Shown here one piece after another: positions 11,894 to 15,154 of a DNA stretch of 35,342 nucleotides (positions are counted from its first letter, which is position 1; each line of letters starts with the position of its first letter). The notes under the pieces were generated by a model. That model worked only from the letters and a program-made list of their open reading frames with translations, was not told the DNA's origin and ran no database searches. Origin of the DNA: Thermoplasmata archaeon (GTDB taxonomy: Archaea > Thermoplasmatota > Thermoplasmata > Lutacidiplasmatales > UBA184); assembly GCA_022749895.1 (NCBI GenBank), contig JAKIWS010000016.1:1-35342 (forward strand), in the 5' to 3' direction. Position numbers and translations under genes: made by a program.

Positions 11894-12856
11894 TCACGGA
11901 TACTCGTAGAATCCCCGGCCGGTCTTTCGGCCGAGGTGGCCGGCCGCGACCAGCCTCCGCAGCGACGGCGAGGGGCGGAACTTGGGGTCCCCGGTCTCTC
12001 GCTGGAGAACTTCGGCGACCTCAAGCGTCACGTCGAGCCCGATCAGGTCGGCGAGTTCGAACGGACCCATCGGGAGGCCCGCGCCGGTTTTCATCGCCAG
12101 GTCGATGTCGCGCGCCCCCGCGAGCCCCTCATCGAGCGCGAAGCACGCCTCGTTCAGCACCGGGATGAGGATCCGATTGACGACGAACCCGGGGGATTCC
12201 TTGACGCGAATCGGCTGCAGCGGGTATCGGTGATTCCGGAGGGACTGGAGGAAATCGACCACCTCGCCGAGGACCTCCTCGCGCGTGTCGACGCCGCCCG
12301 CGACCTCGACCAGCGGCAGCGTGAACGGGGGATTGAAAAAATGCATCACGACGGTGCGGCTGACGTGCTTCAGACCGCGCGCCAACCGCGAAACCGACAG
12401 CGACGACGTGTTGGAGGCGAGGACGGCATGCTCGGGGACCGCGTCGTCCAGCGCGGTCAAGACCGTCCGCTTGACGTCGACGTCTTCGAAGACCGCCTCC
12501 ACCGCCAGGTCGACGTCGCCAAACGCAGCGTACGAGGTCACGCCCGAGACCCGCGTGACGATCTCCGCTCCGCGCTCGGCGGAGACCTTCGGCGCGAGTG
12601 ACCGCCCGAGCGTGGCAACCTGGTCCGCCGTTAGGACGATCCCGAGCTCCCGCAACCGCCCGGCTTCCCGGTCCGCCCGACCAGTGTGGAACGCCACCAG
12701 CTCGTCGACGATCTTGCGAATCCTCGCGAGACCCCGTTCCACGGTCGGAGCGTCGACGTCCTTCAATACCACGTCGAGTCCGTTGAACGCGAACAGTTCG
12801 GCGATCGCTGCGCCCATCGTCCCGGCCCCGACGACCCCGACCCGGCGTACGCGCAC
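11894..12856 (-). CDS. 3-hydroxyacyl-CoA dehydrogenase
   Basis: This enzyme oxidises L-3-hydroxyacyl-CoA to 3-ketoacyl-CoA with NAD+ in beta-oxidation, or runs in reverse. It has the Rossmann motif GVVGAGTMGAAIAE from residue 7, the acidic residue at the end of strand two (KDVD), NTSS (149-152), the catalytic His172 in MHFFNPP with Glu184, and the ESPGFVVNR segment followed by the helical dimerisation domain ending in GRKTGRGFYEYP. At 320 residues it is longer than the typical 280-290; the extra length lies around residues 55-105, before the AVFED motif. It starts with GTG. It forms a fatty-acid cluster with the SCP2-like protein, the ligase and the thiolase. Confidence 0.93.
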   Translation of the reverse strand: MRVRRVGVVGAGTMGAAIAELFAFNGLDVVLKDVDAPTVERGLARIRKIVDELVAFHTGRADREAGRLRELGIVLTADQVATLGRSLAPKVSAERGAEIVTRVSGVTSYAAFGDVDLAVEAVFEDVDVKRTVLTALDDAVPEHAVLASNTSSLSVSRLARGLKHVSRTVVMHFFNPPFTLPLVEVAGGVDTREEVLGEVVDFLQSLRNHRYPLQPIRVKESPGFVVNRILIPVLNEACFALDEGLAGARDIDLAMKTGAGLPMGPFELADLIGLDVTLEVAEVLQRETGDPKFRPSPSLRRLVAAGHLGRKTGRGFYEYP

Positions 12857-12925: not shown

Positions 12926-12936
12926 AACCTTTTATG
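12926..12936 (+). promoter_or_regulatory. TATA box of tRNA-Ser
   Basis: ACCTTTTATGG is centred about 31 bases before the tRNA 5' end at 12962. That is the normal archaeal spacing for a stable RNA gene, and it supports the view that the interrupted tRNA-Ser is expressed. Confidence 0.6.
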
Positions 12937-12961
12937 GTGGTAGCGCGCTCGGCTGACCTGC

Positions 12962-13076
12962 GCGGGGATGGCCCAGCCCGGTAAGGCGCTGGATTGCTAA
13001 TCCAGTGGTGATTTCACCTCGGGGGTTCAAAGGGCCGCCGGAACCGACCGCCGGCCGGAGTCTCCCCCTCCCCGCG
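12962..13076 (+). tRNA. tRNA-Ser (anticodon GCT) interrupted by an intron in the T-loop
   Basis: The acceptor stem is GCGGGGA (12962-12968) with TCCCCGC (13069-13075) and discriminator G. The anticodon stem CTGGA/TCCAG holds loop TTGCTAA (anticodon GCT). A long variable arm GGTG-ATTT-CACC identifies a class II serine tRNA. The T stem GGGGG (13021-13025) pairs with CCCCC (13064-13068), but the T-loop TTCAAA-T is split by 31 extra bases. Removing 13032-13062 restores a canonical 7-base loop and an 84-nt tRNA, a normal class II length. CCA is not encoded. Seen in sequence: all stems. Inferred: splicing. Confidence 0.9.
13032..13062 (+). other. Predicted non-canonical intron in the T-loop of tRNA-Ser
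   Basis: The 31-nt insert folds on itself: 13033-13037 pair with 13052-13056 (GGCCG/CGGCC); then, after one C-C mismatch, 13039-13041 pair with 13048-13050 around a 6-base loop. Exon bases 13026-13028 can pair with 13058-13060. This leaves AAAG on the 5' side (with G13057 unpaired opposite) and TCT (13061-13063) on the 3' side as bulges that contain the two splice sites. It resembles a relaxed bulge-helix-bulge motif, the substrate of the archaeal splicing endonuclease. A one-base shift (13031-13061) would also give a plausible T-loop. Confidence 0.72.
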
Positions 13077-13104: not shown

Positions 13105-13446
13105 CTACGATGGCGATTCGATGGTGGTGAGATAGTACGTGTCTTGGTCCCGTTCGACCCGCACTCTCTGCCCGGGTGCGGGCAATGCGCCGCGGACGAT
13201 CCCGAGCACCCTGACACGGTCGTCGGTCTCCGCGAGGGCGATCCGGTGGGGGGTCGGCCACCCGGCCGCGGGCACCGTGAGTTCCGTCGCCGCCCGGACG
13301 GTCGCGACCGCCGGGGTTCGCCCGGGAACGAGCACACGACCGCCGCATCTCGCGCAGGGTCCGGGGCGCGGTAGGAACCGCGCGTGACAATGGGTGCACT
13401 CGCTCACGCGCAGCTCCAAGGGTTGCCCCGGGCCGGCGGCGTTCAC
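13105..13446 (-). CDS. DUF35-type zinc-ribbon/OB-fold protein, thiolase partner
   Basis: The 113-residue protein has a rubredoxin-like zinc ribbon with Cys17-x2-Cys20 and Cys31-x2-Cys34, then a small beta-rich OB fold to the end. DUF35 proteins bind CoA thioesters and bridge acetoacetyl-CoA thiolase to HMG-CoA synthase in archaea, or accompany thiolase-like enzymes in lipid breakdown. Its start codon overlaps the stop of the upstream thiolase gene by four bases (ATGA at 13446-13443), so the two are translationally coupled and very probably form one complex. No HMG-CoA synthase gene is adjacent here, which favours a role in acyl-CoA metabolism over mevalonate synthesis, though this is only inference. 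Confidence 0.88.
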   Translation of the reverse strand: MNAAGPGQPLELRVSECTHCHARFLPRPGPCARCGGRVLVPGRTPAVATVRAATELTVPAAGWPTPHRIALAETDDRVRVLGIVRGALPAPGQRVRVERDQDTYYLTTIESPS

Positions 13447-14582
13447 TGCGCCGACTCCTTCCCAAGTATCGTGACGAAGTTGTGGGCCCCGAGCCCTCCG
13501 ATCGATTGGGCCAAGCCAGTGGTCGGTCGTCGAGCGATCGCTATCGGACCGGCGTCACCGGTGAGCTGACGAGCGACCTCGACGATCTGAACCAGGCCGC
13601 TCGCACCGACCGGATGGCCGCGACCGAGGAGGCCGCCCGAAGCGTTGACCGGGCATCGGCCATCCGGAGCGGTCGAGCCGTTGGCGAACCAACCGGCCCC
13701 TTCGCCCGGACCGCAGAGCCCGACATCTTCGAGGTCGATCACGGCGAAGGGCGCGAACGCGTCGTGGAGCTCGGCGAAATCGACCGACTTGCGGGTCAAA
13801 CCGGCCATCGTATAGGCACGCTGCGCCGCGAGTCGCGTGGCACGGAACGAGGTCACGTCCTCCCGTTCGGTTACGGCCATGGTGTCAAACCCTTGACCGA
13901 GGCCGAGCACAGAGGCCGCACCCGGACCGGGTTCGAGGATCGCGGCGGCGGCTCCGTCGCTGACCGCCGAGCAGTGGAGCAGTCGAAGCGGTAGGGCGAT
14001 GGGCCGACTCGACGCCACCTCCTCGGCGGAGACCGCGGTGCGGAACTGAGCGTTCGGGTTGCGGCACGCGGCCGACCTCGCGGCGACCGATACGGCGTCG
14101 AGCGCGCGTTCGTCGAGGCCGTGCCGAGCCTGGTACACCTGCGTGACGAGGGCCGCCAGCGCCGGCATGGTGGCGCCGACACGTGCCTCCCGGTCGGCGA
14201 GAGAGTGCCCGAGCAACCGGGCGACTTCCGCCGTCGGGCGATCGGTCATCTTCTCCCCGGCCACCACGAGCGCGCGCCGGGCCTCACCCCCGTGGAGCGC
14301 CCATACACCAGCATGGAACGCCGCCGCGCCGCTCGCGCTCGCCGCGTCCACCCGGAGCGCCATCGCCGGGGCGAGCCCCAACCGGTCGGCGACGCGCGCG
14401 GCGAGGTTCTCGGTCTCCCCGAGAACGCTCGCCGCCATGTTCCCGACGATCAGCGCATCGACCGAGTGAGGGTCGACCGATTCGAGGACCCGCTCCCCGA
14501 CCTCCGCCAGGAGCTCGAGGAGCGGCTCCGGGCGTCGGCCGAATCGACCCACGGCCGTGGCCGCGACGTGAACTCCGGTCAC
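13443..14582 (-). CDS. Thiolase-family protein with Ser in place of the nucleophilic Cys
   Basis: The 379-residue protein follows the archaeal/SCPx thiolase pattern: VGNMAAS, GEKMTD, NPNAQFR, SDGAAAAIL, LHDAFAP, NASGGLLGRGHPVGASG and a final IGGLGAH. The His of HDAF and the His of GHPVGASG are kept. The nucleophile block, normally AACASG, reads AASASG, with Ser82 encoded by AGC at 14339-14337. This suggests either altered chemistry or a non-cleaving partner role. GTG 14582 was chosen because homology starts there and it overlaps the stop of the preceding gene by four bases (GTGA). The longer open frame upstream is antisense-like, without conservation. It is the middle gene of a three-gene operon ending in the DUF35 protein. 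Confidence 0.9.
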   Translation of the reverse strand: MTGVHVAATAVGRFGRRPEPLLELLAEVGERVLESVDPHSVDALIVGNMAASVLGETENLAARVADRLGLAPAMALRVDAASASGAAAFHAGVWALHGGEARRALVVAGEKMTDRPTAEVARLLGHSLADREARVGATMPALAALVTQVYQARHGLDERALDAVSVAARSAACRNPNAQFRTAVSAEEVASSRPIALPLRLLHCSAVSDGAAAAILEPGPGAASVLGLGQGFDTMAVTEREDVTSFRATRLAAQRAYTMAGLTRKSVDFAELHDAFAPFAVIDLEDVGLCGPGEGAGWFANGSTAPDGRCPVNASGGLLGRGHPVGASGLVQIVEVARQLTGDAGPIAIARRPTTGLAQSIGGLGAHNFVTILGKESAQ

Positions 14583-15154
14583 GCGGCACTCTCTCGGACC
14601 GGCTCGGCGAGCGAGGTCAGGAGGTCCAGGAACCGAACGAGCGGCATCCCGCTCGCCCAACGGAGCACGCCGTTCCCTTCCCGCGTCGCTTCCACCAAGG
14701 GCACGCGTCGGCGGACGATACGACGCCACCCGGCCCCGTCGGGACCCTCGGCGACGTAGACCCGCCACGGGTCGCCTTTTCCGCCGCCGATGCGGCGGTA
14801 CGCGTACACGACCACGAGGCCGACCCGGTTCACGGCCCGGGTATGCTCCGCGAGCTGCGCGTGCGCGCGGCCGCTCGCCGCACTGAACCGTATCGTCGTC
14901 TCGCGCGACGCCTTCACCTCGAGGGGAAACGAGAATTCGGAGCGTAGGGCGACGAGGTCGAATCCGAACGAACCGGCCGCCCGAACAACCAAGAACGGCG
15001 TCCGCGCGAGTCGTTCGACGACCTTGCGGTCGTCGGGAGGGAGCGTACGCGCGTAGCGCGCGAGCGTTCCCGGGTCGCCCTCGAGCAGGGCCCGCAGCTC
15101 CCGCTCGTAACCGGCCCCCCGGACCACGGGCCGTTCACGCCGACCCAAGCGCAT
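14579..15154 (-). CDS. Hjc-like archaeal Holliday-junction resolvase-type nuclease with an insertion
   Basis: The 191-residue protein shows the PD-(D/E)xK pattern of archaeal Hjc: Glu17/Glu19 in YERELRALL, Asp66 in GSFGFDLVAL, and Glu79-x-Lys81 in PLEVKAS, followed by the LxEHTRAVNRVGLVVVYAYR helix-strand. Compared with canonical Hjc (about 120-140 residues) there is an extra helical segment at about 28-50 between the first two motifs and a C-terminal extension of about 70 residues. Hjc cuts four-way DNA junctions in recombination. ATG 15154 starts right at the conserved part. Linkage to the thiolase by a four-base overlap is unexpected for a DNA-repair enzyme, so a different nuclease role is possible. 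Confidence 0.75.
   Translation of the reverse strand: MRLGRRERPVVRGAGYERELRALLEGDPGTLARYARTLPPDDRKVVERLARTPFLVVRAAGSFGFDLVALRSEFSFPLEVKASRETTIRFSAASGRAHAQLAEHTRAVNRVGLVVVYAYRRIGGGKGDPWRVYVAEGPDGAGWRRIVRRRVPLVEATREGNGVLRWASGMPLVRFLDLLTSLAEPVRESAA

Follow-up and report, generated by a model that had tools for sequence, protein, structure and literature searches.

A tRNA-Ser(GCU) gene in a 35,342-nucleotide stretch of Thermoplasmata DNA (the whole of which is referred to here as the window) is interrupted within its T-loop, which raises the question of what the insert is and how it might be removed. The gene, whose anticodon is GCT, has intact acceptor, D, anticodon, variable, and T stems (Table 1), and removal of the insert leaves a normal class II tRNA. 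ARAGORN called the insert-free sequence tRNA-Ser(gct), a call unaffected by the 3' cut having been set one base off in this test, and made no call on the genomic, interrupted form. The ARAGORN scan of the window likewise missed the gene, and the Rfam tRNA model scored the interrupted form at 26.1 bits against a threshold of 29. A sequence-only reading of this DNA had described a 31-nt T-loop intron with these splice points, excision of which would give a class II tRNA, in a genome of the Thermoplasmatota lineage, and had warned that gene finders may overlook such a gene. Direct reading and comparison with relatives bear out the intron and its splice points, the ARAGORN and Rfam results agree with the expected product and with the warning, and the lineage assignment also held. 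Given the 7-nt length of a T-loop, the exon-intron boundaries would fall between positions 59 and 60, and the insert is very probably a protein-spliced archaeal tRNA intron at that position. The gene lies on the plus strand and is flanked on both sides by minus-strand genes. Upstream of it, CTTTTATGG may act as a TATA-box-like element; an AT-rich, TTTAAG/TTTATG-like block is found at about the same upstream distance in most Ser(GCU) orthologues, whose host genomes are GC-rich.

Table 1. Features of the window around the interrupted tRNA-Ser(GCU) gene and its predicted splice motif
Feature	Position	Strand	Details or basis
3-hydroxyacyl-CoA dehydrogenase gene, neighbor	11894..12856	-	Pfam 3HCDH_N and 3HCDH
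CTTTTATGG, TATA-box-like element	12929..12937	+	putative function; ~26-33 nt upstream of tRNA-Ser(GCU)
tRNA-Ser(GCU) gene with insert	12962-13076	+	direct reading
5' exon	12962..13031	+	acceptor, D arm, anticodon arm, long variable arm, T-stem 5' strand, T-loop 54-59
Acceptor stem	12962-12968 with 13069-13075	+	GCGGGGA with TCCCCGC
T-stem	13021-13025 with 13064-13068	+	GGGGG with CCCCC
T-loop before the insert	13026-13031	+	TTCAAA; loop resumes at T60 (13063)
Exon strand of BHB central helix	13026..13029	+	T54 T55 C56 A57; pairs with 13057-13060
5' bulge	13030..13032	+	A58 A59 ^ G, predicted cut after second base; 3-4-3 geometry, symmetric 7x7 loop
T-loop intron at 59/60	13032..13062	+	31 nt
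Inner intron hairpin	13033..13056	+	13033-13037 with 13052-13056; covariation, fold
Intron strand of central helix	13057..13060	+	GGAG (p57 p56 p55 p54)
3' bulge	13061..13063	+	T C ^ T60, predicted cut after second base; 3-4-3 geometry, symmetric 7x7 loop
3' exon	13063..13076	+	T60, T-stem 3' strand, acceptor, discriminator G73 (13076); direct reading
Small OB-fold-like protein, neighbor	13105..13446	-	weak Pfam OB_ChsH2_C match, below cut-off
Thiolase gene adjoining the OB-fold-like gene	13443-14768		thiolase domains
Long gene, predicted 753 aa	17060-19321	-	Pfam search of the protein without match
Long gene adjacent to, and clearly like, the preceding one, predicted 712 aa	19430-21568	-	

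The T-loop intron described in the sequence-only reading is real, but it is not a lone oddity: 14 tRNA genes of the source genome carry a T-loop intron, all at the same bond. The tRNA inventory of this genome, a fragmented metagenome assembly of 2.02 Mb in 106 contigs that is 83% complete, was based on RF00005 and R1 searches. Ten of the 14 genes came from weak tRNA matches, namely Ser(GCU), Ser(CGA), Ser(GGA), Glu(CUC), Asn(GUU), Arg(UCU), Arg(UCG), Gln(CUG), Gly(UCC), and Ala(GGC); a covariance model built on these ten added Leu(UAG), His(GUG), Lys(UUU), and Asp(GUC). Removing the insert restored a standard tRNA in Ser(GCU) and nine further genes. R1 matches at five additional loci (L054-L058) were set aside as chance hits, since they either lacked tRNA context or overlapped loci already listed elsewhere. 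We also considered recent transposition, or a burst, of introns inside the genome. This is not supported, because no near-identical pair of introns was found within one genome and because orthologous introns of two genomes were slightly more alike than nonorthologous ones (permutation p = 0.006).

Other interruptions and arrangements were observed among the tRNA genes. Inserts in the D arm occur in Arg(GCG), which has no T-loop intron, in Leu(UAG) and Lys(UUU), each of which has both, and in iMet and others; the loci are L033, L049, and L053 in the source genome, L250, L258, L260, and L268 in the complete relative G029, and L220, L223, and L224 in G038, which belongs to another family of the same order. 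Because many cut points satisfy ARAGORN, the boundaries of these D-arm inserts cannot be given with single-base precision. In both the source genome and G029, Gly(UCC) with its T-loop intron lies just upstream of an intron-free Ser(UGA) (L035 and L245), and Gln(CUG) precedes Leu(UAG) in the same way (L049 and L260). tRNA-Trp carries a long anticodon-loop intron of about 90 nt (L024 and L265); in other archaea the anticodon-loop intron of tRNA-Trp holds a C/D box RNA.

To describe the splice motif, we compared 120 distinct T-loop introns, chosen on the basis of the T-stem, the acceptor stem, and a call by ARAGORN, with the motif itself playing no part in the selection. Their 3' ends follow one rule: four bases facing T54-T55-C56-R57 (termed p54 to p57), then two bases, then T60. 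The base at p56 is G in 119 introns, p55 and p54 are purines in all 120, and 117 introns have the first inner pair, between intron base 2 and the base that precedes p57. The identity of p57 depends on residue 57, G57 being opposite C in 42 of 42 cases and A57 being opposite G in 72, T in 6, and C in none (Fisher p = 2e-33 with relatedness ignored, the counts including related sequences); within the source genome alone, the comparison is 6/6 versus 0/8 (p = 3e-4). Shifting the partner by at least one base abolished the pairing pattern. A compensatory switch was found in orthologous tRNA-Asp, which has G57 opposite C in the genus of the source genome and A57 opposite G in G295 (genus g28). A geometry in which two 3-nt bulges flank a 4-nt helix fits the C56-G step in 119 of 120 introns and the T54 and T55 steps in all of them, whereas strict 4-bp central pairing is confined to the G57 genes and a few A57/U genes. 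Ser(GCU) has three standard pairs (U-G, U-A, and C-G), with A57 opposite G. This arrangement has the geometry of the canonical archaeal bulge-helix-bulge (BHB) motif, A58 A59^N and NN^T60, shifted to the T-loop, the A57 genes usually having an A-G step. The motif had earlier been read as a relaxed BHB; the 3-4-3 geometry is instead canonical apart from this one A57-G opposition. A relaxed 3-bp helix with 4-nt bulges was also tried and was dropped, since a one-base shift gave uniform 3-nt bulges and perfect covariation at R57.

Folding of the Ser(GCU) orthologues gave the T-stem, a symmetric 7x7 internal loop (4 + 3 nt per strand) for the majority of them, and an inner hairpin. In the A57 genes, including Ser(GCU), the energy model leaves the central helix unformed, with the 7x7 internal loop in its place. 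The inner hairpin covaries: in 16 Ser(GCU) orthologues of equal length, both members of alignment pairs 14-35, 15-34, and 16-33 vary, and inner-helix covariation was 0.294, compared with 0.140 for shuffled alignments (0/500 shuffles) and 0.03-0.11 for slid structures. The folding energy of the T-arm plus insert was close to that expected from base composition (z = -1.07), so the case for the intron rests on comparison and not on folding energy.

The source genome has a single locus for the tRNA splicing endonuclease EndA (353 aa; L039:1158-2216). The protein comprises two N/C repeats (PF02778 and PF01974), a structural N-terminal one and a C-terminal one that alone carries the Tyr, His, and Lys of the active site, which is the arrangement of alpha'2 enzymes. 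All three residues are invariant among 22 Thermoplasmata EndAs. Its AlphaFold model (pLDDT 91, pTM 0.84) matched Methanopyrus kandleri EndA (5X89) with TM scores of 0.81/0.85 and also matched Archaeoglobus fulgidus EndA. Sequence alignment with A. fulgidus EndA and with the CSL chimera 3P1Y revealed no insertion corresponding to the CSL/ASL specificity loop, a lysine-bearing insertion beside the active site in broad-specificity enzymes, and none was present at the CSL position in alignments of the 22 Thermoplasmata EndAs. An epsilon2 (ARMAN) assignment, alphaN-alpha-betaC of ~390 aa, was rejected in view of the 353-aa length, the two repeats, and the stronger, C-terminal catalytic domain. Judged from its sequence, the enzyme is alpha'2-like and lacks the broad-specificity loop. 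The genome also encodes RtcB (E = 3e-174).

These features bear on whether some other or specially adapted nuclease, or an accessory factor, cuts the intron, given that the A57-G step is no strict BHB. The alpha'2 enzymes are described as limited to the canonical BHB (PMC12397907, PMC4033280). Attributing the cut to EndA thus means assuming that it tolerates the A-G step, which occurs in 72 of the 120 introns. Nor can the specificity of this EndA be read by homology, because it is only 28-30% identical to the A. fulgidus and M. kandleri enzymes and because these differ: the alpha'2 enzymes of A. fulgidus and Thermoplasma acidophilum are rated narrow and that of M. kandleri constrained broad (PMC6379350). 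However, EndA has one locus in the genome and a conserved active site, the 3-4-3 geometry is otherwise exact, and homodimeric EndA reportedly cuts BHL-like motifs, which have one bulge and one internal loop (PMC8707768). We therefore regard a different nuclease or added factor as unlikely, and cleavage by the resident EndA as the preferred reading.

A second alternative is that the mature tRNA keeps the insert, which would extend its T-arm. It does form a compact hairpin that continues the T-stem. Nevertheless, the strict rule by which the 3' end of the intron pairs with the T-loop would be pointless in a retained loop, and the other tRNAs of the source genome have ordinary 7-nt T-loops. A retained insert of 13-41 nt would disrupt the elbow formed by the D-loop and T-loop, which also counts against an extended T-arm. 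Retention is accordingly very improbable, and removal of the insert remains the better account.

The lack of an ARAGORN call and the subthreshold Rfam score could also indicate a pseudogene or decayed copy, with another tRNA reading the Ser AGY codons. The earlier reading had raised the possibility of an uninterrupted copy, and a search of the source genome (83% complete) turned up neither a second Ser(GCU) gene nor one free of the insert. Among the 28 genomes of the same genus, the source genome included, 24 had a clear match to the Ser(GCU) exons; the remaining four have a completeness of 59-75%. Each genome had one copy except G027, in which two places on different contigs matched the intron model with equal score. 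In every gene parsed from the genus, Ser(GCU) is interrupted at 59/60, and drift is confined to the insert: the exons, including the 5' exon taken alone, are 94-100% identical and their stems intact, while the inserts have diverged yet still pair. The relative G029, which is 100% complete, has the same 14 tRNA genes interrupted, each the sole gene found for its anticodon. The 14 interrupted genes cannot all be dead, because among them are the sole genes detected in G029 for Asn, Asp, and His. This conservation pattern refutes the pseudogene reading, which is even less probable than retention. The chance that assembly or binning created the insert is negligible, for although the source is a fragmented metagenome assembly, the same bond and format with differing sequences recur throughout the 62 genomes of the family that were examined, several of which consist of few contigs, and this recurrence in independent assemblies excludes the assembly error that the earlier reading had allowed for.

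Within the family, the intron model detected T-loop introns in 61 of the 62 genomes, and those of the 62nd were found in a separate search. Applied to other families of the same order, the model gave no match. Direct reading of the tRNA genes of G038, from another family of the order, revealed introns only 13-15 nt long in the T-loops of Ser(GCU) (AATTTTTTGAAAA), Ser(UGA), Arg(UCU), and Arg(UCG); these short introns, at L222, L221, L223, and L229, still obey the pairing rule. In G037 and G039, T-loop introns of 31-34 nt occur in Ala(CGC) and Arg(CCG), and the T-loop of Ser(GCU) is intact, its insert lying beside the anticodon at about position 33/34 (L218 and L225). The site at which Ser(GCU) is interrupted therefore differs within one order. 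Elsewhere in the class, T-loop introns are scattered, occurring in Leu(UAA) in family f25, in Pro and Arg genes in G041, and in Lys(UUU), with a length of 22 nt, in G042. In a single-gene comparison by EndA, the closest named relatives were acidic-soil Thermoplasmata metagenome-assembled genomes (MAGs), among them AcS5-107, with an EndA 90% identical to that of the source genome; these MAGs are members of Candidatus Lutacidiplasmatales (PMC9287336), and the word "intron" does not appear in the paper describing that group.

We propose the following mechanism for the Ser(GCU) precursor. Once the gene is transcribed, the T-stem of the T-arm would stay paired, and T54-T55-C56-A57 would pair with the GGAG that precedes the 3' bulge. 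The hairpin of the intron itself would stack beyond this central helix, creating a BHB in which the 4-nt helix has a 3-nt bulge at either end. EndA would most likely cut after A59 and before T60, and RtcB is the most likely candidate to join the exons. The T-loop serves as the guide strand in this scheme, and its sequence, GTTCRAA, hardly varies among tRNAs; one intron format therefore fits any tRNA, which explains how 14 tRNA genes can share the T-loop intron. More broadly, the order may use the T-loop as a universal splice guide at 59/60, in the same 14 genes within a genus and with an alpha'2-like EndA relaxed to accept the A-G step, so that splicing would be required to supply the Asn, Asp, His, and Ser AGY tRNAs and for T-loop modification. 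We hold this wider proposal tentatively, at somewhat less than even confidence.

EndA type has been linked to intron repertoire, with the alpha4 and alpha2 Euryarchaeota having few introns, all of them canonical (PMC4090602, PMC4033280). An order with an alpha'2-like EndA in which T-loop introns outnumber anticodon-loop introns is unexpected for that enzyme type. Either strict BHB enzymes accept any position given the geometry, or the specificity of this EndA has broadened although it lacks the known loop. In practical terms, general tRNA finders can underestimate tRNA counts and isotype completeness in Thermoplasmatota. A search of the open-access literature yielded no description of T-loop introns from Thermoplasmatota, and a conserved, genome-wide set of 59/60 introns in an order of this phylum appears to be new.

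Several known systems resemble this one in part. The Asgard archaea Atabeyarchaeia and Freyarchaeia also have intron-rich tRNAs, with 92-95% of tRNA genes interrupted, often at noncanonical positions (PMC11291895), but they belong to a different phylum. Korarchaeum cryptofilum is said to be the only alpha2-type archaeon with noncanonical tRNA introns (PMC4033280); its alpha2 EndA has a specific loop, whereas the EndA studied here has no insertion at that place in the alignment with 3P1Y. Short protein-spliced introns at noncanonical sites, including 59/60, are known mainly from Crenarchaeota (PMC4090602) and are dense in Thermoproteales (PMC8450103). Our lineage shares with Thermoproteales and other Crenarchaeota the short introns, the noncanonical sites including 59/60, and the BHB-type motifs. 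In those groups, however, an (alpha-beta)2 EndA of broad specificity serves many positions, whereas here one position dominates, the motif is a near-strict 3-4-3, and the EndA is alpha'2-like. In having two repeats and a C-terminal active site, this enzyme resembles the alpha'2 EndA of A. fulgidus (1RLV/2GJW) and the M. kandleri fusion (5X89), the latter being its best match by both sequence and fold. In BHB geometry and enzyme class (alpha'2 or alpha4), the system matches the canonical 37/38 introns of Euryarchaeota. Yet fewer than 10% of euryarchaeal tRNA genes bear introns, one each and at the canonical position (PMC4090602), in contrast to the 14 genes with T-loop introns here, two of which also have D-arm inserts.
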